Shown here in pieces: positions 982-52,284 of a stretch of DNA of 64,000 bases. Below the pieces are notes generated by a model that saw nothing but the letters and a program-made list of their open reading frames with translations, did not search any database and had not been told where the DNA came from. Both the position numbers and the translations under genes were made by a program. Positions within the stretch are counted from its first letter, which is position 1. Each line of letters begins with the position of its first letter. The stretch is from Mesorhizobium huakuii (GTDB lineage: Bacteria > Pseudomonadota > Alphaproteobacteria > Rhizobiales > Rhizobiaceae). The stretch is from the NCBI RefSeq assembly GCF_014189455.1, contig NZ_CP050296.1, forward strand, positions 1,116,001 through 1,180,000. Direction: 5' to 3'.

Positions 982-2148
982 TTGCGGAACATCTCAGATA
1001 CGATCGCCCGCCTTTCGGCCATGCGAGGCCGGCCGGCATTTTCCCAACCGGGCCATCTCGACAGTCTGTCCGACCTGGCGGCGTTCGGGTCCAATCCAGG
1101 CGCCTTGCGGGCACGTTTCTACCTTCCTGAGAACTTGCCGCGCGGTGCAGCGTTGGTTGTCGTCCTGCATGGCTGCACGCAGACGGCTGCCGGCTATGAT
1201 CACGGGTCCGGCTGGTCGCGCCTGGCGGCAGAGGAAGGGTTCGCGGTTTTGTTCCCCGAACAGCAGCGCGCCAACAATGCCAATCTCTGCTTCAACTGGT
1301 TCGTGCCCGAGGATGTCACACGCGATCGCGGTGAAGTGCTCTCCATCCGCCAGATGATCGAAGCCATGGTGACGAAGCATGGCCTGGACCGCCGGCGCGT
1401 TTTCATCACTGGCCTTTCCGCCGGGGGCGCCATGGCGGCGGCAATGCTGGCAACTTATCCGGACGTGTTCGCCGGCGGCGCAATCATTGCGGGACTTGCC
1501 TATGGCAGCGCATCGACGATCCCGGAAGCGTTCGATCGCATGCGTGGGCATGGTGGCCCGTCTCAGTCGGAACTCCAGCGACGTCTGGCGCAGGCGTCGC
1601 CGCATCAGGGAAGCTGGCCGAAAATCTCAATCTGGCAGGGCACGGCCGACCACACGGTGGCGCCGTCCAATGCGGACTCCCTTGTCGCCCAATGGCAGAG
1701 CGTTCATCGCGTCGGGGCAAGCCCTGTTCGAAAAGAGACCGTCGATGGACAAACGCGGCAAGTCTGGTGCGACGCCGATGGCCGTGAGGTGATCGAAAAA
1801 TACACAATTGCCGGCATGGGCCATGGCACCCCCTTGAAGACAGGCGGTGACGGCGGCTTGGGCCATGCCGCGCCGTTCATGCTGGAGGTCGGAATATCGT
1901 CGACGAGACGTATGGCGGCCTTCTGGGATCTTGCGAGCCGGGATGCACCAAGAGGGGCCAAGCCTAAGGCGGCCGCAGCGAACCCCACTGCGGGTACGGA
2001 CTTGCGCCCATATATAGCGCCCGAAAAGTCGAGGCCAGCGCGGGTCGAACCTGCCGAACAACCGCGTCCAGATGGTTCACGCGCTTCTGCTACAGGCATT
2101 GGCAAGACTATTGAGGATGCGCTTCGCGCAGCCGGCTTGATGCGTTAG
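982..2148 (+). CDS. PHB depolymerase-family esterase (LpqC-like)
   Basis: Predicted alpha/beta-hydrolase of the poly(3-hydroxybutyrate) depolymerase/feruloyl esterase type. HGCTQ (about residues 63-67) forms the oxyanion region, GLSAGG (144-149) is the nucleophile elbow with Ser146, and GTADHTVAPSN and GMGHGT carry the likely catalytic Asp and His. No signal peptide is visible, so it is probably cytoplasmic and may act on short esters or intracellular polymer. The C-terminal 60 residues are a Pro/Ala-rich low-complexity tail. The start used is TTG at 982; ATG at 1021 would still keep the whole domain. Confidence 0.8.
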   Translation: MRNISDTIARLSAMRGRPAFSQPGHLDSLSDLAAFGSNPGALRARFYLPENLPRGAALVVVLHGCTQTAAGYDHGSGWSRLAAEEGFAVLFPEQQRANNANLCFNWFVPEDVTRDRGEVLSIRQMIEAMVTKHGLDRRRVFITGLSAGGAMAAAMLATYPDVFAGGAIIAGLAYGSASTIPEAFDRMRGHGGPSQSELQRRLAQASPHQGSWPKISIWQGTADHTVAPSNADSLVAQWQSVHRVGASPVRKETVDGQTRQVWCDADGREVIEKYTIAGMGHGTPLKTGGDGGLGHAAPFMLEVGISSTRRMAAFWDLASRDAPRGAKPKAAAANPTAGTDLRPYIAPEKSRPARVEPAEQPRPDGSRASATGIGKTIEDALRAAGLMR

Positions 2149-2204
2149 CCGAAGGCTGTTCGGCAGAATGGCCCCGCCGCCTTTCGGCAGCGAGGCCCTG
2201 TCGA

Positions 2205-2808
2205 TCAAACTCGGTTTACATCGCGAGCGCCATCGCGGCCGATTTCGTTCGAGCGGTAGTTCTCCGCGTCAGCGTCGAAGCCAGTCCAGCCATCGGCCTG
2301 GTATTCGCCACGCCGTTCTTGCAGGTTGACAGACGTAGCCTGTCCCAGGATCCCTTTCGGCCTCCGGCACCAACTGGTCGTCGACCTTGGCTGTGACCAG
2401 AGTGCCGCCGCGGCGCACACCCTCGGCGTAAACATGGGCATCATGTTCCGGGACACCGGAATCGGTGAGGGCACCGACGATGCCGCCTGCCGCGCCGCCA
2501 ACCACGGCACCGCCCACGGCACCGACCGCAGTGGCAGCCAGCCACCCGGCGGCCACCACCGGACCAACACCCGGTATGGCCATCAGGCCAAGCCCGGCGA
2601 GCAGTCCACCGGCTCCGCCGATCGCGGCTCCCAGTCCAGCACCGCCGGCAGCGTCGTCGGCGGCCTTGGACCCGTTGATCTCGTGCTGATTGTCCGAATT
2701 GCTGGAAACGATGCTGATGTTGTCACGCGCAACACCGCTGGCTTCCAATTCGCCAACGGCGTCGGAAGCATCATCGTAATTGTCGAAAAGTCCGGTTACG
2801 GTTTTCAT
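2205..2808 (-). pseudogene. General stress glycine-zipper protein, frameshifted
   Basis: The N-terminal frame begins MKTVTGLFDNYDDASDAVG, an alpha-beta fold with a glycine-zipper middle (AAIGGAGGLLAGLG and VGGAVVGGAAGG), as in general stress proteins with a YflT/DUF1269-like N-terminus. In that frame the reading runs into unrelated sequence after VDDQLVPEAE. The other frame continues ILGQATSVNLQERR and WTGFDADAE, which resembles the usual family C-terminus, and stops at 2205. The shift lies in an AAAGGG run (plus strand 2352-2357): one extra base there explains both frames. It lies 25 bp downstream of the DUF4142 gene on the same strand, probably in one transcript. It could be a sequencing error rather than a dead gene. 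Confidence 0.65.
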
Positions 2809-2833
2809 GATTTTGATCTCCTGGATTTCAGTT

Positions 2834-3583
2834 TCAGTTGACGCCGGCAACGACGTTGCCCTTGTAGTCCAGCGCCACGGTGGTGTTCTTGCCGTCCTTG
2901 TTGGCCTGGCCACGCCAGATGCCCTGGTCGTCCTTGGTCAGCTTCGACACATCGGCGAAGCCGGCATCCTGGATGCGGCCCTTGGCCTGGTCTTCGGTGA
3001 AGCTGTTGGCCCCGGGAAGCGGAGGCATGGGGTCGGGTGCGCCGCCGACCGTGTTCTTGGGCGTCTGCGAATCCGAGGACTGGGTGCCCATGGTCGCCGC
3101 GATCTTCTCGATCATCTCCTGGTGCATCTTGAGCGTCGGCACCGTCTGCTGGGCGAATGTCTTCAGCTCGGCGTTGTCGCCGTCCTTGGCGTAGCTCTCG
3201 AACAGCTTCACGGCATCGGTGTGCGCGTCGCGCTGCATCTGGACGTAGGGGCCATCGATCGGATCCTTGCCGTTCTGCAGAGTGTCGACATCACCCTTGA
3301 GCTTGGCATCCAGTTCCTTGGGAACCGTCAGCTTCTGCTCGCCGGCGATCGTCTCCAGCTTCGCGTTGGCGGCGCCGTGATCGTCGATCATCTTGTGGGC
3401 GAAATCCTTGACGCTCTGATCCTGCACCTTGCCTTCGGCGACCTTGCTGGAATTGACCTCGAACATGCCGCCCGCAGCGGCCTTGTTGACGAAGTCCTGC
3501 GCGCTGTCGGCGGCGAGTGCAGGCAGGGCAAAAGCCATGGCTGTAGCTGTGGCCAGTGAGGCCAGAAATAGGCGTGTTTTCAT
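2834..3583 (-). CDS. DUF4142 periplasmic stress-associated protein
   Basis: The 249-residue protein starts with a clear signal peptide (MKTRLFLASLATATAMAFALPALA, cleaved after ALA). A DUF4142 four-helix domain (about 30-165, rich in KDFAHKMIDDH and TLKMHQEMIEKIA patterns, ferritin-like) follows. After a Pro-rich linker there is a short C-terminal module (SFTEDQAKGRIQDAGF and GIWRGQA) resembling a PepSY/BON-like fold. Members are secreted or periplasmic and often stress-induced; the biochemical role is unknown. Upstream lies a possible EcfG-type promoter, and the stress protein gene follows on the same strand. Confidence 0.8.
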   Translation of the reverse strand: MKTRLFLASLATATAMAFALPALAADSAQDFVNKAAAGGMFEVNSSKVAEGKVQDQSVKDFAHKMIDDHGAANAKLETIAGEQKLTVPKELDAKLKGDVDTLQNGKDPIDGPYVQMQRDAHTDAVKLFESYAKDGDNAELKTFAQQTVPTLKMHQEMIEKIAATMGTQSSDSQTPKNTVGGAPDPMPPLPGANSFTEDQAKGRIQDAGFADVSKLTKDDQGIWRGQANKDGKNTTVALDYKGNVVAGVN

Positions 3584-3895
3584 TGGGGAAGGTCCTTTCA
3601 TGCACACATGTGCTGGGGACCTAACCTGCGCCAGTCGGCTTTGTTCCGGACGGTCAGAGATAATCTGGCGGGACCGGCCGCGAACCGTGTCGGCGGTGAT
3701 TTCGGGCGGCGGCTGGTCAAAGACTATGCCTGCGAGGCAGCAGCCATCGCCAAGAGGGTCAATGCCCCGCGCCGGCACTCGGCAACGCCCGCCACCGGAG
3801 AGCGGGTGCGCCGGCTGCCACTGCGCGATCTGGAGTATTCGCTGGCGGTTTGAGGGATTGATCCAGGCATTTGTAGAGCCAGCCGGCTTTACTCC
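3584..3895. other. Intergenic region, 312 bp
   Basis: It separates the start of the DUF4142 gene from the end of the NmrA-like gene. Apart from the candidate stress promoter nothing convincing is visible. An 81-codon plus-strand frame here has no family resemblance and no good ribosome binding site. Confidence 0.5.
3623..3647 (-). promoter_or_regulatory. Candidate EcfG (general stress) promoter for the DUF4142 gene
   Basis: On the minus strand GGAAC (3647-3643), a 16-base spacer and GGTT (3626-3623) resemble the EcfG consensus GGAAC-N16/17-CGTT with one mismatch in the -10. It ends 40 bp before the ATG. Consensus match only. Confidence 0.5.
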
Positions 3896-8951: not shown

Positions 8952-9959
8952 ATGACTACCAGCGCCCTTGAGACCGAACGGCCGAGCAGCTTGGCCGAGG
9001 TGATCTCCATCCCTGAGAGACGAGTTATGAAACGCATCCAATATGACCGCTATGGCGGCCCGGACTTGATGAAGCTCGAGAATTTCGAGCTTCGCGCGCC
9101 GGGCAAAAGCGAGGTTGCCGTCAAGGTCCACTTCGCGGCCATCAATCCCATCGACTGGAAAGTGCGCAACGGCGCGCTGAAGATGGTGACGGGGAAAACA
9201 TTCCCTCGTGCCCTGGGCAGCGATTTTTCGGGAACCGTCACTTCGGTCGGTCCCGGCGTCTCGCGCGTCAAGGTCGGCGATGCCGTGTTTGGCCTCGCGC
9301 CGATCAAGGATGGCGGTGCGATCGGCGAAGCCGTGATCGTGCCGGAAACCTTCCTTGCCAAGATGCCTAATTCGATCTCCTTCGAGGAGGCGGCGTGCCT
9401 TGCCACGCCCGGCATCACCGCCTGGAATGGTCTCGTCGACAAGGCGCAGTTGACGGCAGGCAAGCACGTCCTCATCAACGGCAGCACTGGCGCCGTCGGC
9501 GAGTCGGCGGTTCAAATCGCCCGCATGCTCGGTGCAACAGTCTCCGGAAGTTGCAGCGCGGAAGCGATGCAAAGGGCGCGCGACCTCGGCGTTCAGACCG
9601 TCTTCGATTATCGCAAGACGGACCTTTCGAAGATCAGCAACCGCTACGACGTCGTCTATGATACCGCCGGCACGATGACCGTCGCCGTCGGTCTCGGCCT
9701 GCTGCGCAAGCGTGGTTTCTATCTCGACATCAACCCGACGCCGGCCAAGTTCATCCGCGCGCTGTTCAACCGGCACCTGAAGCCGATCATCTGCACGGCG
9801 AGAGCCGACATTCTCGACAATCTCGCCCGCGCGGCGGGCAAAGGGGCACTCAAGCTGCCGGTGGTGGAAATCGTTCGTCTTCAGGATGCGATTGCGCTGG
9901 TGACCGCCCTTGAATCCGGCCGCAGACTCGGCGGAAAAGGCTTGGTGTCCATGGCTTGA
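8952..9959 (+). CDS. NAD(P)-dependent alcohol dehydrogenase / quinone oxidoreductase (MDR family)
   Basis: Medium-chain dehydrogenase/reductase without the structural zinc cysteines, hence of the quinone oxidoreductase-like branch. The catalytic GroES-like domain holds AINPIDWKVRNG and LGSDFSGTV. The cofactor domain has HVLINGSTGAVGESAVQIAR, the NADP-binding loop, and ends GRRLGGKGLVSM. The open frame begins at ATG 8952 behind GGAAG, but family proteins normally begin near MKRIQYDRYGGP, which matches the in-frame ATG at 9027; the first 25 residues may not be translated. The WYL regulator follows after 45 bp on the same strand. Confidence 0.83.
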   Translation: MTTSALETERPSSLAEVISIPERRVMKRIQYDRYGGPDLMKLENFELRAPGKSEVAVKVHFAAINPIDWKVRNGALKMVTGKTFPRALGSDFSGTVTSVGPGVSRVKVGDAVFGLAPIKDGGAIGEAVIVPETFLAKMPNSISFEEAACLATPGITAWNGLVDKAQLTAGKHVLINGSTGAVGESAVQIARMLGATVSGSCSAEAMQRARDLGVQTVFDYRKTDLSKISNRYDVVYDTAGTMTVAVGLGLLRKRGFYLDINPTPAKFIRALFNRHLKPIICTARADILDNLARAAGKGALKLPVVEIVRLQDAIALVTALESGRRLGGKGLVSMA

Positions 9960-10004
9960 CAGCCTGCTGCCAAAGTTTGGCACGGTGTGTGCTAGGATAG
10001 TCCG

Positions 10005-10703
10005 ATGTCCAAGAGCAACCGGCTTTTCGAACTTATGCAGATGCTGCGCCGGCACCAACGCCCGGTGCCGGGCACCGAGCTTGCGCGCGAAGCCGGGGTT
10101 TCCTTGCGGACCATCTACCGTGACATCGCCGCCTTGCAGGCTTTGGGCGCTCAGATCGAAGGCGAGCCGGGCTTTGGCTACATCCTAAAGCCCGGCTTCC
10201 TGCTGCCGCCGCTGATGTTCACCGAGGAAGAAATGCACGCGCTCACGCTTGGCGCCCAATGGGTAAGCCGGCAGACCGATCCTGGCCTCGCGCGCGCCGC
10301 AGAGAACCTGCTTGGCAAGATCGGGGCGGTGCTGCCTGCAGAGCTGCGCCCAACCTTAAATGAGAACGCCTTCCATGTCGGCCGTGCGCCGGCTCATGTG
10401 AACGAGATCGATTTGCAGATCGTGCGCCAGGCGATGCGCGAGCAGCGCAAGCTTCTCATAAGCTATCGTGACCCCAAGGGACCCGCGACCGAGCGGATCA
10501 TCTGGCCAATCATGCTTGGCTTTGTCGAGACGAAACGCTTCGTCGCCGGCTGGTGCGAGTTGCGGCAAGACTTTCGGCTGTTCCGCACGGACCGGATTGG
10601 CCGAGCTGAGTTACAGGCCGGCCGCTACCCGGGGCGCCGCCGTGATCTGGCCAAGCAATGGCGGGTCAAGGTTGATGGCGAAAACGCAAAACTATCCGGC
10701 TGA
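10005..10703 (+). CDS. YafY-type HTH/WYL domain transcriptional regulator
   Basis: A 232-residue regulator: an HTH_11 winged helix at 1-60 (RLFELMQMLRRHQRPVPGTELA then VSLRTIYRDIAAL) and a C-terminal WYL domain (KLLISYRDPKGPATERIIWPI and RFVAGWCELRQDFRLFR). WYL proteins bind ligands or nucleic acid and usually control an adjacent operon. The upstream dehydrogenase and SnoaL genes are the obvious candidate targets because all three lie on one strand, but no operator was identified. Confidence 0.85.
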   Translation: MSKSNRLFELMQMLRRHQRPVPGTELAREAGVSLRTIYRDIAALQALGAQIEGEPGFGYILKPGFLLPPLMFTEEEMHALTLGAQWVSRQTDPGLARAAENLLGKIGAVLPAELRPTLNENAFHVGRAPAHVNEIDLQIVRQAMREQRKLLISYRDPKGPATERIIWPIMLGFVETKRFVAGWCELRQDFRLFRTDRIGRAELQAGRYPGRRRDLAKQWRVKVDGENAKLSG

Positions 10704-10746
10704 AGTGAACATCCATTCCTTGCGGCGGACTGTTCGACCCAGTGCC

Positions 10747-11043
10747 CTACCCAAAAATCCGCTCGCCCTGTTCATCGACCAGCTGGATACCCTTCTTGAT
10801 CGAGATGTCGACGGCGTCGTCCAGTCCGGCGAAGCGGTCGGCGCGGATGAATTTGTGTTCCTTCATCACGCCGTCGATCTCCTTGGAGACGATTCCGCAG
10901 GTCTGGTACTGGCCGTCGGCCTTGTAGGGCGTGGCGCTGATCAGGAAACCCTTGTGCTCGACCTGCTTGGCGGGTGCCGCACTTTTGGGCTCGGCCGCTT
11001 CACCACTGCTGCCACCGCCGAATAGACGTTTCAGAAAAGACAT
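10747..11043 (-). CDS. HlyU family protein
   Basis: A 98-residue protein whose core EHKGFLISATPYKADGQYQTCGIVSKE and a closing helix match the HlyU family. The founding Vibrio HlyU is a haemolysin activator with a winged-helix fold; most proteobacterial members are annotated only by homology. The N-terminus (MSFLKRLFGGGSSGEAAEPKS) is a short amphipathic and flexible leader. It lies downstream of the TetR gene on the same strand. Confidence 0.8.
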   Translation of the reverse strand: MSFLKRLFGGGSSGEAAEPKSAAPAKQVEHKGFLISATPYKADGQYQTCGIVSKEIDGVMKEHKFIRADRFAGLDDAVDISIKKGIQLVDEQGERIFG

Positions 11044-11090
11044 CGCTCAAATCTCCTTGTTCGCCCTGCAAACCGCGGTCCGTTCGCGAT

Positions 11091-11732
11091 TCACGACGTT
11101 TTCGTCCCAGCATGCGCGAATGTGCCGCCGCGTTCCAGCCCCCTGATGAAGACCGCGACCAGCAGCTCGATCTGCTGGTCGATCTCGTCGGCCTGCCGGC
11201 GCACGGATCTGGCCGCATAGCCGCTGGTGACGATGCCATGCACGCTTGACCACAGCGTGCGCGCGGCGATCCGGCGCGTGTCGTCGTCGAGGTCGAAGTC
11301 GCCGCCGGCGAGCACCTGGGCAATGATCTCGAACAGCTGGTCGAGCCGCGCCTCATACGCGTCCGGCTCGGCCAGCGTCGGACGCCGCCTGTTGAAGGCG
11401 AGCAGTGCCGGCCAGCTGCCGGGATGCGCCTCGACAAAACGGACATACGCGTCGGCCAGCGCCAGCAGGCGCTGGCGCACATCGGTAGTGCCGCGCTTGG
11501 AAAGATCGGCCATCGCCGCTGCCCCTGCCGCACCCAGCCGGTCGAGCAGCCGCATGTTGACGGCACGGTGCACCCCGTCGAGATCGGAAAACAGGTTGTA
11601 GACCGAACCGACCGAGATGCCCGCCTGCTCGGCTATGGTCCTGGCCTTCAGATTGTCCATGCCGCCCTCGTTGAGCAGCACCTCGGCAATCGCCAGCACC
11701 CGCTCGCCCGTCTCTTCCCTGTCCAGTGCCAT
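11091..11732 (-). CDS. TetR family transcriptional regulator of the PspA-YiaAB operon
   Basis: About 213 residues from the ATG at 11732 (MALDREETGERVLAIAEVLL). The TetR HTH is seen in LKARTIAEQAGISVGSVYNLFSD, followed by a helical ligand domain with a C-terminal dimerisation region. An upstream in-frame ATG at 11852 would add 40 residues that overlap the operator region and is unlikely. The gene is divergent from the PspA-like operon, and three GAAC-N-GTTC palindromes lie between them, indicating control of both directions. Confidence 0.87.
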   Translation of the reverse strand: MALDREETGERVLAIAEVLLNEGGMDNLKARTIAEQAGISVGSVYNLFSDLDGVHRAVNMRLLDRLGAAGAAAMADLSKRGTTDVRQRLLALADAYVRFVEAHPGSWPALLAFNRRRPTLAEPDAYEARLDQLFEIIAQVLAGGDFDLDDDTRRIAARTLWSSVHGIVTSGYAARSVRRQADEIDQQIELLVAVFIRGLERGGTFAHAGTKTS

Positions 11733-17228: not shown

Positions 17229-18284
17229 ATGCGCGAGACAACAGACCTGCCGCCGGACCGGGTCGACATTCCTGCGGCATGGATCGGCGAGGACATGGCA
17301 AAGCATTCTGAACAATGGCTGGTCGAACTGGGCTCGCGCGACGTCGCGGAACTGGAATCGGCGGCCGCCGGTTTTCTCGCCCGCTCACGCGATATCGGCA
17401 ACCTGAGCAAGGCCGATTTCCCCTTACCCCGGCTTGCCGGCCATCTTTCCGCGCTTCGCCAAAAACTGATCGTCGGAATAGGCTTCGAGGTGCTGCGCGG
17501 TCTCCCGGTCGCGGGATATTCCGCTGAAATGACGGCGACGATCTTCTGCGGGATCGGCGCGCATCTGGGAAGCGCACGCTCACAGAATGCCCAGGGCCAC
17601 ATTCTCGGCCATGTCCGCGACATCGGCGCCGACGCCAGGGACGCCACGACACGCATCTACCAGACGGCGGAACGCCAGACGTTTCACACCGATTCCGCCG
17701 ATGTCGTCGGCCTGCTCTGCCTAAGGGATGCCATGCAAGGCGGCGAGTCGCTGCTGGTCAGCACGGTGACGATCTATAACGAGATGCGCAAAAGACGGCC
17801 CGATCTGGTCCGCCTGCTGTTTGATCCGATTGCAACCGACCGGCGCGGCGAGATACCGGAAGGCGAAAAACCCTATTTCGAGATCCCGGTCCTCAACTGG
17901 CATGCGGGATTGCTGACCGGCATCTACCAGCGCCAGTACATCGACAGTGCCCAACGCTTCCCGGATGCCATGCGGCTCAGCCCCGCGCATGTCGAAGCGC
18001 TGGATCTCTTCGACAGCCTTGCCAATGATGTCAGGCTGAACCTGTCGATGCGGCTTCAGCCCGGCGACATGCAGTTCGTCTACAATCATTCGCTGCTGCA
18101 CGACCGCATGGGGTTTCGCGATTGGCCAGACCCGGACAAGCGGCGCCATATGCTGCGCCTGTGGCTATCGGTTCCCGGCGACCGCCTGCTGCCTGAGTGT
18201 TTCAGGCAGCGCTACGGCTCGATCGAGATCGGCGACCGGGGCGGGATCATTGTCAAGGGGACCCGGCTGAACGTGCCGCTATAG
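17229..18284 (+). CDS. TauD/TfdA-like Fe(II)/2-oxoglutarate dioxygenase
   Basis: A 351-residue protein. FHTDSADVVGLLCL places the metal-binding HxD at His153 and Asp155, and the distal VYNHSLLHDRMGF supplies the third His with RRHMLRLWLS giving the 2-oxoglutarate-binding Arg. This is the TauD/TfdA double-stranded beta-helix layout. Family members hydroxylate small molecules, including organosulfur compounds and amino acids; the substrate cannot be read from sequence. The ATG at 17229 follows CAGGAGAATGTC. It stands alone between the GYD gene and the rpoD terminator. Confidence 0.82.
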   Translation: MRETTDLPPDRVDIPAAWIGEDMAKHSEQWLVELGSRDVAELESAAAGFLARSRDIGNLSKADFPLPRLAGHLSALRQKLIVGIGFEVLRGLPVAGYSAEMTATIFCGIGAHLGSARSQNAQGHILGHVRDIGADARDATTRIYQTAERQTFHTDSADVVGLLCLRDAMQGGESLLVSTVTIYNEMRKRRPDLVRLLFDPIATDRRGEIPEGEKPYFEIPVLNWHAGLLTGIYQRQYIDSAQRFPDAMRLSPAHVEALDLFDSLANDVRLNLSMRLQPGDMQFVYNHSLLHDRMGFRDWPDPDKRRHMLRLWLSVPGDRLLPECFRQRYGSIEIGDRGGIIVKGTRLNVPL

Positions 18285-47505: not shown

Positions 47506-47694
47506 TCAGCTCTTCTGCTTGGCACCGGCGCTCTTGCCGTCGGAGCTTTTCGAACGCTCCTCGAAACGCGCAGCGCCCTTTTCCAGCGGCCGGCCGGTTT
47601 TGGCCTCGGTCTTGCGCTCGTCCTTCGCCGCCGCCTGCTTCAATCCCTTGGCGGCCTGCTTGCCCTTTGCGGTCGGTGCCTGTTCGACGCCCAT
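47506..47694 (-). CDS. Small lysine/alanine-rich protein (62 aa)
   Basis: MGVEQAPTAKGKQAAKGLKQ, then alternating Lys, Ala and Glu to the C-terminus. It resembles small basic stress proteins of low complexity. Two features support it as a real gene: GGGAGGAAGCA directly before the ATG, and an EcfG promoter 43 bp upstream (47737-47761). It may bind DNA or act as a hydrophilin; no family recognised. Confidence 0.65.
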   Translation of the reverse strand: MGVEQAPTAKGKQAAKGLKQAAAKDERKTEAKTGRPLEKGAARFEERSKSSDGKSAGAKQKS

Positions 47695-47736
47695 TGCTTC
47701 CTCCCTTGGCGCGACAATCGCGCACTGTTCAGGAGC

Positions 47737-47761
47737 AACGTGCGTAAGGTGCGGCGGTTCC
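47737..47761 (-). promoter_or_regulatory. EcfG-type promoter of the 62-aa protein gene
   Basis: On the minus strand GGAAC (47761-47757), 16-bp spacer, CGTT (47740-47737): a full match to the EcfG consensus. It lies 43 bp upstream of the ATG at 47694. Confidence 0.72.
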
Positions 47762-47791
47762 GGCGACCTCTGAGAACGGCTAAGCGACTTT

Positions 47792-47820
47792 AGAGCGATT
47801 CCAGGAAAAGTGTGAAAAAC
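47792..47820. repeat. Short rhizobial intergenic motif, copy 2
   Basis: AGAGCGATTCCAGGAAAAG then TGTGAAAAAC, related to the sequence at 18285-18318. It is followed by CGCCGCTCCAG and CGGAGCGG which can pair. Confidence 0.4.
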
Positions 47821-47881
47821 GCCGCTCCAGCCAAATCTAGCCGGAGCGGCCGCTCATAAAACAGGAAGTTCTGTGAGCGCC

Positions 47882-48112
47882 TTAATAGGCCTTCTTGGCA
47901 ATCGTGTGCTTTTTGGCGTGCTTCTTATGCTTCTTGACGTGTTTCTTGACCTGCTTCGTCGCCATAGCATCCGAGCCTTGCGAGGTGGTCGTTGCGGTCG
48001 TCGCTGCGGGGGCCTGGCTCATAGCGGCGTTGGCGCTGCTGGCGCCGAGGACCGGCATCGAGACAGCGAGCGCGAACGCAAGACCGAGGGCGGTGAGAAG
48101 GGACTTCTTCAT
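47882..48112 (-). CDS. Small secreted His/Lys-rich protein
   Basis: 76 residues: a signal peptide (MKKSLLTALGLAFALAVSMP, then VLGASSANA) followed by a Thr/Ala stretch and a very basic tail KQVKKHVKKHKKHAKKHTIA. The tail repeats K-K-H, which could bind metal or anionic surface polymers. The start at 48112 is where the signal peptide begins. No family recognised with confidence; similar short proteins are common in rhizobia. Confidence 0.7.
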   Translation of the reverse strand: MKKSLLTALGLAFALAVSMPVLGASSANAAMSQAPAATTATTTSQGSDAMATKQVKKHVKKHKKHAKKHTIAKKAY

Positions 48113-48530
48113 GGTTTCATTTCCTTTTTTGCAGTCGGTTTTGAGCGTCACTGAACCGGATTGACCGGTGTCGCTCCTGACAGCTTCAACGCATTCGCAA
48201 GCATCCGTATTCCCTGTGCCTGTTTCTTGTTGGCGCAGAACCGGCTTCCCTCTTCTTTGAAATGCCTTCGAAGTGCCTTCGCAGGGGTGAGGTTTTCGAG
48301 GCGCCGTCAGGTTGACGGCCGAGACTGCTGCAGCGCTCGCTGCGGCCTATCGCGTTGCGAGCGCACTTCCAAACAGGAAAAACCCGCCATCCCGGGTAGG
48401 AAGGCGGGCTCGTTTGGGAACACGTATTGGGAACCTCTCGCGGGCTGATCAATAAGATCGAAAGAAAACACGCCGAAGAGCCCAGGTTCCAGCGGCGCAT
48501 GAATTTTTACATGCATGGCCGAACGAAAGC
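48113..48530. other. Intergenic region, about 420 bp
   Basis: Between two small secreted protein genes. It contains a hairpin CCCGCC...GGCGGG (48383-48408) which, read on the minus strand, ends in T5, as in a terminator. No convincing gene was found; the open frames here overlap each other in several phases. Confidence 0.5.
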
Positions 48531-48555
48531 GGAACTTTTCTAAATTCTTCCCGTT
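48531..48555 (+). promoter_or_regulatory. EcfG-type promoter of the small secreted protein gene at 48612
   Basis: GGAAC (48531-48535), 16-bp spacer, CGTT (48552-48555): a full match to the EcfG consensus, 56 bp before the ATG. Confidence 0.78.
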
Positions 48556-48611
48556 TTTTGAGATGATCGATGCTTGGACGATCGTCAAAAGCTACCGAAA
48601 GGATTTTCGAC

Positions 48612-48905
48612 ATGAACACCAAGATGCTCTGCATGGGCGCCATGGCTCTCTCGTTGATGACAGGCGCCGCACTTGCCGGCGGCGGCACCGGCACTTCCGC
48701 ACTGGACGACCCGGCTAAGATGTCACCCTTCTTCACGGACGCCAGCATGAAGACCATGAAGTCGGAGAAGGAATTCAAAGCCGCATGGATGGCTATGAAG
48801 GAAGAAGACCGAGCGGGAATAACGAAGGAATGCGGCGACCAGGCCATCGCAAAATCGCACGACAATTTCTGCAAGATGACCAAACAGCTCGGAGGCGCGA
48901 ACTGA
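48612..48905 (+). CDS. Small secreted protein, stress-promoter driven
   Basis: 97 residues: signal peptide MNTKMLCMGAMALSLMTGAA, then LAGGG and a helical mature part SALDDPAKMSPFFTDASMKT, with ECGDQAIAKSHDNFCKMTKQ near the end carrying two cysteines that may form a disulfide. The ATG is preceded by GAAAGGATTTTCGAC. The upstream promoter has the EcfG consensus, which places it in the general stress response. Family unknown to me. Confidence 0.75.
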   Translation: MNTKMLCMGAMALSLMTGAALAGGGTGTSALDDPAKMSPFFTDASMKTMKSEKEFKAAWMAMKEEDRAGITKECGDQAIAKSHDNFCKMTKQLGGAN

Positions 48906-49177
48906 TCAACAAGAGAGCGTTTCGACCGGAATCTGCCGGGCCGAAAGGGCTCGCCTTTTTTCTATCGATGGCTCAATCGCCATCCAAGCGTTGAACGCAA
49001 TGATACAAGAAATAAGATCCTCCGATTGCAATGGGCGAGGACGATTCGACGTCCGGCAGGTCGCCGTGAACTATGTGCCGCACCTGGTTGAGCATCCCTC
49101 GAGGTTTTTTCAGAACGTCGTCGCTTGAACCACTTGCCCCAACTGCGAAAGATATCCGCATTTCAGATAGGTCCGCT
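48906..49177. other. Intergenic region, about 270 bp
   Basis: Holds AAAGGGCTCGCC near 48950 and little else. A 90-codon minus-strand frame (49245-48973) has no recognisable domain and a poor start, so it is not called. Confidence 0.4.
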
Positions 49178-49203
49178 GGAACAGGAATGCTCCGCAGAAC
49201 GTT
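49178..49203 (+). promoter_or_regulatory. EcfG-type promoter upstream of the DUF3309-like remnant
   Basis: GGAAC (49178-49182), 17-bp spacer, CGTT (49200-49203): a full consensus match in front of a tiny hydrophobic reading frame. Confidence 0.6.
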
Positions 49204-49259
49204 TATCTGCATCAAGTCACAGGCATTAGGCCCTGCCCAGGGCAAGAGCGGCGAACGGT

Positions 49260-49340
49260 ATCACCACGATTCTGGTCATCGTTCTTATTGTTTTGCTGCT
49301 AGGCGGCGGTGGTTTCTACGGCCGCGGGCGCTGGTACTAG
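49260..49340 (+). pseudogene. DUF3309-like tiny hydrophobic protein remnant
   Basis: In frame from 49260 the sequence reads ITTILVIVLIVLLLGGGGFY, then GRGRWY and a TAG stop, like the short one-helix DUF3309 proteins of rhizobia (typically starting M-x-TILIIILI). No ATG, GTG or TTG lies in frame between it and the upstream stop; the expected start codon appears as ATC. IS630 copy C is inserted exactly at the TAG; its first base supplies the G, so the stop is kept. It is probably a dead or start-mutated stress gene. Confidence 0.4.
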
Positions 49341-50388
49341 AGCGGGATGAATTTAGGTTGGTACATACCCGGCCTCGGTGAAGTAATTTCTGCATTCGGT
49401 TGAAGTGACGGTGCCGAGGATCTGACCGATGGCTTCGCAGACGGTCTCGACTGTTCGTCTGGCAGCCTTGCGCAGCCAATGCTTGAGCTTGGCGAAGAGC
49501 TTCTCGATGGGGTTCAGATCGGGCGAGTATTTGGGCAGCAAGAACAACCTGGCGCCGGCCGCGCGGATGGCGCGGCGCACGGCCTTGCCTTTATGTGAGC
49601 CGAGATTGTCCATGATGACGATGTCGCCGGGCTTGAGGACTGGGACGAGAACCTTGTCGACATAGAGCTGAAAACGCTCGCCGTTGATCGGTCCGTCGAT
49701 GAGCCATGGTGCATCGACGCAGTCATGACGCAGCGCCGCCAGGAAGGTCATTGTCTTCCAATGGCCGTGCGGCACCTTGGCCTTGATCCTCTCGCCGCGC
49801 GGCGCCCATCCCCTGAGCGGTGCCATGTTGGTTTTGGTCCATGTCTCGTCGATGAACACCAGACGGGAAGGATCGATGCGGTCCTGATACTTTGCCCACT
49901 GTGTCCGCCTGCGCGCCACATCCGGGCGATCCTGCTCAGCCGCGATCAGCGTCTTTTTTGTGACTGAGCTTCTCGGCGTGGACGAACTCCCACACCGAGC
50001 GGTAGTCGACCGCAAGGCCGCGCTCGGCCAGCTCGATCACAAGACCGCGCAGCGTAAAATCCGTGGCCCGGCAGCGCACCAGAAGCCAGTCCCGATGCTC
50101 ACCGGCAATCTTCTTCGGCCGGTGCCCACCCATCTTGCCGGGTGCAAGGCTGCTCGTTTCGCGCAAGCGGCGCACCCACCTGATGACGGTGCTGATACCA
50201 ACTCCATAGCGCACCGAGGCCTGCCGTCGCGACAGCCCCTCCCGCTCAACCGACGCAACAACCCGTTCGCGAAGATCCATCGAATAAGGCTTGCCCATCC
50301 TTACCAACCTCCTTGCCTAGCAAGAAGGTTGAATCAGATTTGCCACCCTAGGGGAATCCCTTCGATTCAGCCTCAATTCATCCCGCTC
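49340..50388 (-). mobile_element. IS630-family insertion sequence, copy C (1049 bp)
   Basis: Ends GAGCGGGATGAATT on both strands, flanked by TA at 49338-49339 and 50389-50390. It is a relative of, but distinct from, copies A and B: transposase homologous, ends different. The transposase is split over two frames. Confidence 0.92.
49353..50307 (-). pseudogene. IS630 family transposase in two frames (copy C)
   Basis: The N-terminal frame (from 50307 or the ATG at 50298) has the HTH MGKPYSMDLRERVVASVERE and RRQASVRYGVGISTVIRWVR, and stops soon after EFVHAEKLSHKK. The C-terminal frame continues TLIAAEQDRPDVARRRTQWA, DETWTKTNMAPLRGW, DIVIMDNLGSHKGKAV and SPDLNPIEKLFAKLKHW, ending at 49353. The frames meet at an A6 run (T6 on plus, about 49952-49957); A5 would give one continuous frame. 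Such splits in IS630 elements are sometimes programmed frameshifts at A-runs, so it may be functional by slippage. Confidence 0.82.
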
Positions 50389-50598
50389 TAGACTGTGAGG
50401 ATCGTCGTAGCGTCAATCGGAGCCTCTTGGTCCCGCTTTCCCACATAGTGCAAGGCATGGATTCCATCATACTGCGACGCCGCGTCTCCGACGTTGGCGC
50501 GGCCGACGGGTCTCCTCGTCGCTCTCATCAAGAGCGTCTCCGTTCCGGTCGATGGCCCGCCAAAGTGAATATTTCCGACAATGCGCTCGTCATCTCGC

Positions 50599-50985
50599 TC
50601 AGCCCCGGTTGTCGACACTCCAGGCTCCAGGTCCCGCGAAAAACAGGTAGAAGAAAGCAAAGCAGAACAGGATCGCCGCATCGCCCATATTGTTCGCGGG
50701 GAAAAAGCCCTTTTGGGCGTGAACCATGAAATAGGCGATCGCCATCATCCCGCAGAGAACGAACGAAACGGGCCGGGTTAAAAAGCCGACCAGGATCAGC
50801 AAGCCGCCGAGCAATTCAAGAATGCCCGTTACAATCATCAGCGTTTCCATGCCGGGCTGTGCAGGCATCGTCGATGGTGGAAAGTTGAAAAGCTTTTGGC
50901 TGCCGTGTTCAAGGAACAGAAGCCCCACAACGATCCTGAGCACTCCCAACGCCTGAGGCGAATATCTGGAAAGACCTTGGAGCAT
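50599..50985 (-). CDS. DoxX family membrane protein
   Basis: A 128-residue protein with four transmembrane helices: ALGVLRIVVGLLFLEHGSQK, MIVTGILELLGGLLILVGFL, VSFVLCGMMAIAYFMVHAQK and DAAILFCFAFFYLFFAGPGA. The RIVxGLLFxxHGxQKLF start is the DoxX signature. DoxX proteins take part in redox or membrane stress complexes in some actinobacteria; roles in rhizobia are not known. A possible EcfG-type promoter is 35 bp upstream of the start. Confidence 0.88.
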   Translation of the reverse strand: MLQGLSRYSPQALGVLRIVVGLLFLEHGSQKLFNFPPSTMPAQPGMETLMIVTGILELLGGLLILVGFLTRPVSFVLCGMMAIAYFMVHAQKGFFPANNMGDAAILFCFAFFYLFFAGPGAWSVDNRG

Positions 50986-51019
50986 CGGAAACTCCGTCGT
51001 GCTGATTTCTATCGAGTTT

Positions 51020-51044
51020 AACCGCGACGCTCCGCGAAGGTTCC
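51020..51044 (-). promoter_or_regulatory. Candidate EcfG-type promoter of the DoxX gene
   Basis: On the minus strand GGAAC (51044-51040), 16-bp spacer, GGTT (51023-51020), one base from the consensus CGTT. Confidence 0.5.
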
Positions 51045-51072
51045 GGTGGCATCCAAGAGAACTCGCTAACTC

Positions 51073-51228
51073 GTGCTTGACGATGAGGTTTTGATCGCCA
51101 TGGACTTGGAGCTTGCGCTCACAGATGCTGGCTTCATGGTCGCGGTTGGGCGCTGCCCGACGGTCGCGTCGCCGACGCGCTTTGGCTTTCGTGGGGATGG
51201 CGGATCGGTTACGGAATTAGTGCGCTAA
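51073..51228 (+). pseudogene. Response regulator receiver domain remnant
   Basis: The frame from GTG 51073 reads VLDDEVLIAMDLELALTDAG and FMVAVG, the first strand (with the acidic DD/E pocket residues) and first helix of a CheY-like receiver, then diverges into unrelated residues and stops at 51228. The phosphoacceptor Asp and the rest of the domain are missing. It is a decayed fragment, not a working gene. Confidence 0.5.
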
Positions 51229-51278
51229 TTTACGGGCACCAATCGCACAGCAAAGAAAGGGAGCCCGGGAGGATCACC

Positions 51279-51578
51279 ATGCATCTGTCGAACGAGAGCA
51301 TCATTGTCATATTGGTAGTCGGCCTTGTTGCCGGATGGTTGGCCGGGAAGATCGTGCGGGGGGCTGGCTTTGGCCTAATTGGGGACATAGCAATCGGGAT
51401 CATCGGCGCGTTCATCGGTGACTGGCTACTGCCTCGCTTAGGCATCCATCTTGGGAGCGGAACGATCAGCCTGATCGTCAACGCCACCGTCGGTGCGATC
51501 GTACTTCTCCTCATCATCCGGTTGGTTGCCGGTGGCGGTCGCTTCGGCGGCGGATGGAAGGGTCGTCGGTGGCGCTAG
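51279..51578 (+). CDS. GlsB/YeaQ/YmgE family stress-response membrane protein
   Basis: A 99-residue protein with three helices: [40 protein letters not shown] and SLIVNATVGAIVLLLIIRLV, with the characteristic GAWLAGK-like and GDIxxGIxGAxxG motifs. The C-terminus is Gly/Arg-rich. Members are associated with general, acid or osmotic stress. A GGGAGCCCGGGAGG ribosome binding region precedes the ATG. No EcfG promoter was found directly upstream. Confidence 0.9.
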   Translation: MHLSNESIIVILVVGLVAGWLAGKIVRGAGFGLIGDIAIGIIGAFIGDWLLPRLGIHLGSGTISLIVNATVGAIVLLLIIRLVAGGGRFGGGWKGRRWR

Positions 51579-51674
51579 CACGGGGTTGCAAACCCATCGT
51601 CCCGAACGACGGGCGCAATCGCGTTTTCGCACAACCTCGGTCGAACTCGGTCATCAGAACGATTGGGTCTGACC

Positions 51675-52127
51675 CTAGCGCGGCGCCGTCATCGCCTTGC
51701 GGAACGCTTCCAGCGTTTCGGCGCTGACATGGTGCTCGATGCCCTCGGCATCGATGCGCGCCGTCTCGGCGCTAACGCCGAGCGAGCGCAGGAAGGCTTC
51801 CACCGTCTGGTGGCGGATGCGGCTTTCCTCCGCGACCTTGCGGCCGGCCTCGGTCAGGAACACACCGCGATAGGGTTTTCTCGACACCAGCCCGTCGGCG
51901 CACAGCCGCGTCAGCATTTTGGCCACCGTCGGCTGGGCGACGCCGAGCCGTGCGGCGATGTCGACCTGGCGCGCCTCGTTGCCGTCCTCGATCAAATCGG
52001 CGATCAGCTCGACATAATCCTCGACCAGCGCGCTGCGGCGCGCTTGGCGCTGCTGCCGGAACCCTTCCGAGTGGACATCGGCGTCGGGCAGTGGCTCACG
52101 CGGGACCGGTCTGTTCTTCAGCGCCAA
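51675..52127 (-). CDS. mntR: Manganese-responsive regulator MntR
   Basis: A 150-residue DtxR-family regulator: HTH in [20 protein letters not shown] and the metal-binding/dimerisation helix set [20 protein letters not shown] with [17 protein letters not shown], where the E-x-x-E-H-H pattern is the family Mn site. It represses Mn uptake when Mn is sufficient. It is divergent from the mntH-type gene across 232 bp, the common arrangement. Confidence 0.9.
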
Positions 52128-52284
52128 TGCGCGCTCCTCCTCGGAGTTTGGCCGTCGGCGCTTTTATAGCACGGGCTCTGATTCTTCAGGCCGTTTATTT
52201 GCATTCCCCCACAGGCGCAACCGGCGTTTCCGATTGCCGTTCCGCAAACCCGGCCGAGCGCTCGACAAAAAGCACAAACAATGA

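Follow-up and report, generated by a model that had tools for sequence, protein, structure and literature searches.

We analyzed a stretch of 64,000 nt from Mesorhizobium huakuii (contig NZ_CP050296.1, positions 1,116,001 to 1,180,000), hereafter the window, with a focus on an island of 4,073 bp (47506..51578) beside mntR in which several genes are preceded by the sequence GGAAC-N16/17-(C/G)GTT. This pattern, hereafter the motif, resembles the promoters of EcfG, the general stress sigma factor of the Alphaproteobacteria, whose transcripts are expected to begin about 6-8 bp past the -10 element. The following features carry the argument (ORF, open reading frame; IS, insertion sequence):

47506..47694, - strand: 62-aa Lys-rich ORF beside mntR, conserved across relatives
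47737..47761, - strand: EcfG-type promoter of the 62-aa gene
48531..48555, + strand: EcfG-type promoter of the 97-aa gene, with the motif kept in family copies
48612..48905, + strand: 97-aa secreted protein with two invariant Cys, from a multi-copy family
49178..49203, + strand: EcfG-type promoter of the DUF3309-like gene
49251..49340, + strand: DUF3309-like membrane-peptide remnant (29 codons and a stop), without start codon or ribosome site
50599..50985, - strand: DoxX-family membrane protein (PF07681, E 6.5e-17)
51020..51044, - strand: EcfG-type promoter of doxX, with GGTT as -10
2834..3583, - strand: DUF4142 protein (PF13628, E 3.5e-37), outside the island
3623..3647, - strand: EcfG-type promoter of the DUF4142 gene, conserved at a similar place
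47787..51676: accessory insertion of ~3.9 kb including an IS, from the 62-aa promoter to mntR, with empty and filled sites in relatives

All five motif sites claimed in an initial annotation of this DNA are present exactly as listed. The window holds eight motif matches, compared with a mean of 1.31 (sd 1.09, largest 4) in 100 dinucleotide shuffles; four of them fall in the island, for which the rate in 13 evenly spaced 20-kb stretches of this genome predicts 0.08, and the other four are spread over the remaining 59,927 bp. Three matches come in addition to the five already claimed, at 17348, 41578 and 52219. The first two were rejected as EcfG promoters, since both lie inside coding sequence (two of the eight window sites are genic, with contexts judged by eye). 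The third (52219-52243), in the gap between mntR and mntH, was rejected as well, the motif being found in 1 of 61 such gaps of relatives, and in this sole relative (L211) with a sequence differing from that of the window. Of the eight sites in the window, about five would thereby be real promoters, and three are probably chance matches.

The promoter of the 62-aa gene is the best supported of the set. The gene has a match in 109 of 146 congeneric genomes, and for its promoter we sampled the best 80 of 111 loci from named records, which are mostly from Mesorhizobium, with two from Sinorhizobium and others from Rhizobium leucaenae, Aminobacter, Corticibacterium and Oryzicola. GGAAC-N16/17-C(G/A)TT precedes the gene in all 80 loci: 69 carry the exact motif, starting 52-73 nt upstream of the ATG, and the remaining 11 carry GGAAC-N16-CATT at the same place. 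The spacer drifts, its columns averaging 60% identity over 63 distinct N16 sites, and control of this gene by EcfG is strongly supported by the comparison. In 69 of the 80 loci, mntR lies within ~0.7 kb. The protein matched no Pfam family (E up to 0.1) and no NCBIfam family, and the same holds for the 97-aa protein.

The 97-aa family is present in 132 of the 146 congeneric genomes, with 10 matches in the genome of the window (one of them a fragment) and 14 in one relative. Among the best 120 of 260 homologues, the named ones are hypothetical or uncharacterised, and nearly all are from Mesorhizobium. Of 30 best-per-genome copies (30 of the 132 genomes, own included), 24 have the exact motif at most 120 nt from the start; such copies were picked by similarity to the protein of the window, which biases the sample toward window-like copies. 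A fairer sample is that of 60 further, diverged copies, 30 of which have the exact motif. The background for both samples is 0.0014 per 150 nt. Within the own genome, the exact motif precedes six of nine full-length copies. On these comparative grounds, an EcfG promoter is well supported for the family. The tiny genes, whose reality the initial annotation had argued for from their promoters, are thus real by conservation as well, as the genome counts for the 62-aa gene and the 97-aa family attest.

For the DUF3309-like gene, a family name that we took over from the initial annotation, 33 genomes had a match, and the motif occurs within 300 nt in 27 of 30 copies (own included), in 21 of those 27 at 107-122 nt before the aligned start; an EcfG promoter is well supported here too, as judged from the alignments. 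The copy in the window is indeed a remnant, as had been proposed: relative to two related loci (L282 and L283) it misses ~40 bp, including the ribosome site and the ATG, both of which are present in relatives. Therefore, the promoter is kept while the reading frame has no start, and ordinary translation of the predicted transcript is ruled out in this strain. The remaining 29 residues gave no NCBIfam match. DoxX of the island type (at least 90% identity) is found in 5 of 146 genomes. All five close orthologues (own included) have the motif, two with an N17 spacer, which lends moderate support to a promoter for EcfG. Outside the island, the exact motif precedes 9 of 30 copies of the DUF4142 gene (own included), and GGAAC-N16 with a relaxed -10 lies at a similar distance in 28 of 30; taken together, these counts make an EcfG promoter well supported. 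The -10 elements lie 42 nt (62-aa), 56 nt (97-aa), 34 nt (DoxX) and 39 nt (DUF4142) from the respective ATG.

The regulators that such promoters call for are encoded in the genome. A single NepR match is adjoined, at C1:2.219-2.222 Mb, by genes for a sigma factor of the EcfG type (NCBIfam PRK12547, E 2e-107; Pfam sigma regions 2 and 4 both matched), for PhyR (NCBIfam PRK09191, E 2.1e-116) and for a histidine kinase of the HWE type, so that a genome lacking EcfG, which would have spoken against the initial annotation, is not the case here. The surrounding region (C1:2.213-2.223 Mb) is the densest motif cluster among the listed matches, as judged by eye, and its sites precede nepR and phyR.

In one related locus (L286), the match to the window breaks off after 47786 and resumes at 51677, with 3 bases in between. 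Empty sites are found in L286, L287 and L301, filled ones in L282 and L283, and a part-filled one in L284. Four genes, for the 76-aa Lys/His-rich protein, the DUF3309-like peptide, DoxX and GlsB, lie in the gap in the window and likewise in L282 and L283, and L284 has only the DUF3309-like gene and GlsB there; among these four loci, the 97-aa gene and an IS630-type element lie in the gap only in the window. Among the 80 named loci of the 62-aa gene, a DoxX/GlsB block was found in the gap by tblastn in one (L210), a search that the short DUF3309 peptide could escape. In genome G134, the 62-aa/mntR site is empty (L301), and a block including the 97-aa gene lies ~250 kb away (L285), in the same gene order and orientation but with the DUF3309-like gene and DoxX separated by ~2.5 kb of other DNA; the pieces of this block that are homologous to the window extend from 47821 to 51679, near both insertion ends. 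Membership of the module varies, as the islands of G007 and G135 are without the 97-aa gene and that of G018 is without DoxX and the 76-aa gene. By eye, the insertion ends show no terminal repeats, and among the named island genes there is no recombinase except that of the IS630-type element, which the islands of relatives lack; neither was searched for systematically. These sequence comparisons show the block to be an accessory insertion that few genomes have. Beside the same or a related module, L285 (~9790-11201, - strand) and L288 (~1700-3171, + strand) carry a gene for a PAS-HisKA_2/HWE-type histidine kinase, the class that signals to PhyR, with the frame interrupted at different places in the two.

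From the observed motifs and their conservation, the regulator genes and the insertion, we conclude that the island is very probably an accessory general-stress cassette, the EcfG-controlled genes of which bring their own wiring, inserted beside an old stress gene. The old general-stress gene would be that of 62 aa beside mntR, which would have gained the ~3.9-kb cassette in its upstream gap, the 97-aa, DUF3309-like and DoxX genes each bringing an EcfG promoter of their own. From established knowledge of these families, HWE/HisKA_2 kinases would sense stress and lead to phosphorylation of PhyR, which would then bind NepR and free EcfG, and RNA polymerase with EcfG would start the genes at separate sites, a few bases past each -10. 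The products would act as small periplasmic, membrane or basic cytoplasmic stress proteins, while GlsB would be a passenger or otherwise regulated, as would the 76-aa gene as far as present evidence goes.

The initial annotation had also proposed a scan of the whole genome. The listed sites cluster and are mostly intergenic; the raw number of sites shows no excess. With CGTT as the only -10, we counted 176 matches, versus 231 for the reversed pattern. Genome-wide motif counts were therefore rejected as evidence, the reversed pattern being equally frequent, and the case for EcfG is one of site position and conservation, not of motif number. To classify positions, we used a simple gene map based on codon usage, which leaves ~20% of the window non-coding and misses some tiny genes, that of 97 aa among them. 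With this map, 22 of 33 classified sites from the first 30 listed genome matches were intergenic, a set that includes overlapping reverse-strand readings and one doubled pair; in clustered stretches the share was 25 of 27, compared with 1 of 5 in control stretches and 3 of 15 for the reversed pattern.

Many of the other clustered EcfG-type sites of the genome also precede small ORFs, and in the nepR/ecfG/phyR cluster 5 of 10 downstream ORFs are below 130 aa, as judged by eye. Around six of the eight other own full-length copies of the 97-aa gene, 11 more motif matches were found in 45.5 kb, versus ~0.9 expected; the 45.5 kb consist of 5.5-8-kb stretches, excluding the promoters of the copies themselves and the pre-selected cluster L094, with one stretch cut with a listed match in view. 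EcfG-type sites therefore gather in several islands of the genome. Further clusters, with mostly small ORFs downstream, were observed at C1:2.565-2.585 Mb (L094) and 3.284-3.312 Mb (L095, L096), and include a 97-aa paralogue, a CsbD-like ORF and a DUF3309-like ORF (names given by eye).

The two cysteines of the 97-aa protein are invariant in 38 aligned family members. Its structure model has a mean pLDDT of 68.9, with residues ~31-90 mostly helical at a pLDDT of ~80, and we predict a small helical domain with moderate confidence; comparison with solved structures gave no sequence match at E <0.1 (best 0.12) and no fold match. The family also occurs on 19 plasmid records, all from Mesorhizobium, of which only one covers at least 80% of the query. 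On plasmid pMLb of M. japonicum MAFF303099 (L409, 2841-3195), which is typed as conjugative, the family member MAFF_RS00820 has its own upstream EcfG-type site, and a gene for an ATP-dependent DNA ligase lies ~2 kb away. MAFF_RS00820 is possibly msr9689, a top heat-induced gene in the available part of the published account (PMC3989490).

The remaining features of the island are as follows:

47882..48112, - strand: 76-aa secreted Lys/His-rich protein, without an exact EcfG motif
48188..48213, - strand: GGAAT-N17-CGTT before the 76-aa gene, a one-base variant of the EcfG motif
48562..48586, + strand: inverted repeat with an 8-bp stem in the 5' untranslated region (UTR) of the 97-aa gene, z -3.19 in the window copy
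49340..50388, - strand: IS630-type element (PF01710, PF13358), TA-flanked, ends placed by eye
51279..51578, + strand: GlsB/YeaQ-type (Transgly_assoc) membrane protein (PF04226)

The IS630-type element has two overlapping frames and sits directly at the point where the DUF3309 remnant has its stop codon. It is absent from L282-L285, and its first ORF has a 100% identical copy in L096. The 76-aa protein shows weak similarity to the NCBIfam family Asr (acid shock; E 0.05, 14 bits versus a cut-off of 50). By eye, GGAAT-N17-CGTT is kept in five examined copies of its gene; in Sphingopyxis, the -35 hardly ever departs from AAC, which speaks against a GGAAT variant (PMC7083833, available part), and as a promoter this sequence is a weak candidate. 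In the 3-kb GlsB loci (L172-L201), 46 motif matches lie elsewhere than before GlsB itself, far more than the 7 in the DoxX loci, and GlsB genes may reside in motif-rich neighbourhoods.

The inverted repeat of the 97-aa family sits close after the -10. We folded 30 nt from 5 nt past the -10 and compared single-sequence energies with those of shuffles. The 54 distinct 97-aa UTRs of motif-bearing copies averaged -7.41 versus -3.92 shuffled (mean z -1.68; 41 of 54 below -1), and the 75 distinct 62-aa UTRs -10.27 versus -7.36 (mean z -1.2; 46 of 75 below -1), with a mean z of -0.36 for 23 other EcfG-type sites of clusters (5 of 23 below -1). The 62-aa, DUF3309, DoxX and DUF4142 sites of the window itself fold unremarkably (z -0.78 to 0.30). 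In the 97-aa alignment of 36 sequences, one stem pair is G-C in 19, A-U in 9 and G-U in 6. From the UTR alignments, RNAalifold derived no consensus structure of use, with values of 0.0 for the 97-aa set and -0.42 for the 62-aa set (its first 60 rows), and no known RNA family was found in 47-52.5 kb at the gathering threshold. The 5' stem is thus a tentative lead from single-sequence energies and a column-pair scan, and a protein-binding dyad in place of an RNA stem would look the same.

Several observations weigh against an EcfG-controlled cassette. Besides the lack of excess in the genome counts, the close doxX set consists of only five, mostly near-identical sequences, and the (C/G)GTT motif precedes none of 25 more distant DoxX genes (~60% identity), or 9 of 25 when TGTT or CATT is allowed. 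The exact motif is missing from 30 of the 60 diverged 97-aa copies and from three of the nine own full-length ones, and the larger DUF4142 count depends on the relaxed pattern. GlsB, which the initial annotation had noted as adjacent, has the motif upstream in 0 of 30 copies. In addition, replacing CGTT by CATT or TGTT reduced transcription in vitro (PMC7083833, available part), and variant -10 sites may be weak. Could the sites then be chance matches in GC-rich DNA? The equal frequency of the reversed pattern would agree with this, as would the three of eight window sites that are probably chance, namely the two in genes and that of the mntR/mntH gap, and yet the sites are conserved at similar distances from the start while the spacer drifts. 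On comparative grounds, chance is refuted for the 62-aa, 97-aa and DUF3309 sites, nearly so for DUF4142, and in principle remains for doxX; as an account of the whole it is very improbable.

A further alternative is that the promoters are recognized by a different ECF sigma factor, either in place of EcfG or alongside it. The genome has 13 other sigma-like matches, the nearest two being 38% identical to EcfG (best fit NCBIfam PRK12511, one under its cut-off); the same motif precedes nepR and phyR here, however, as it does nepR of another EcfG system (PMC7083833, available part), and we consider this alternative unlikely. Slightly less likely still is the proposal of the initial annotation that the genes form an envelope branch of the general stress regulon, distinct and so far undescribed, and act together on the envelope. 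Most products look secreted or membrane-bound by sequence, and gene order and orientation are kept at the second place in G134, which would fit joint action. However, the block is accessory and found in few genomes, with the varying membership described above, GlsB is not under EcfG, the DUF3309 copy is broken and not translatable, and EcfG regulons are already reported to hold envelope genes (PMC6599016, PMC7083833, available parts). Of the initial proposal, the promoters before the 62-aa, 97-aa, DUF3309-like and DUF4142 genes have thus held up, and that of DoxX moderately, while the envelope branch has not.

Beyond this locus, the general stress regulon of Mesorhizobium may grow by self-wired cassettes: genes gathered in islands, mostly with their own EcfG promoter, would move as blocks and become part of the regulon at whatever site they reach, the 97-aa periplasmic family, with up to 14 matches per genome and a 5'-terminal mRNA stem, being the most amplified part. 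We put this forward as a conjecture with somewhat less than even chances. For several families of tiny, unannotated rhizobial genes, above all the 97-aa family, an EcfG-controlled cassette would indicate what regulation to expect, and it would provide a case of a stress regulon gaining a ready-wired block at a defined site. As empty, part-filled and filled relatives can be compared, regulon growth would become directly testable in laboratory rhizobia.

In the literature that we covered (titles and abstract openings, with most subscription journals outside coverage), control of these genes by EcfG is not described. By naming convention, the tag ms- denotes a short gene. Of the 50 genes most induced by heat shock in Mesorhizobium loti MAFF303099, 15 carry such tags and are mostly hypothetical; heat also induces a gene that resembles rpoE2 (PMC3989490, available part). 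Overexpression of rpoE2 in Sinorhizobium meliloti raises 202 genes, 150 of which are without predicted function (PMC3616915, available part). In the available parts of the accounts of Sphingopyxis granuli and Sphingomonas melonis (PMC7083833, PMC6599016), the regulons share with our sites the -10 variants CATT, TGTT and GGTT, which in the established Sphingopyxis regulon are the commonest alternatives to CGTT (PMC7083833), as well as envelope genes and many hypothetical ones; they also hold a "predicted small secreted protein" and PRC-barrel, and, unlike here, no cassette structure is described in those parts. A close likeness is also to the EcfG regulon of Rhizobium etli, where GGAAC-N16-CGTT has the same -35, spacing and -10 (PMC3892343, available part), in agreement with the initial annotation, which had named this sequence as the known EcfG consensus; in contrast to that regulon, ours is read from sequence only, and its small genes are centred on Mesorhizobium. 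Small genes and envelope genes in EcfG regulons, and thus this kind of system, are already known, whereas the cassette, the multi-copy 97-aa family that is often under EcfG sites, and the tentative stem in its 5' UTR are new.

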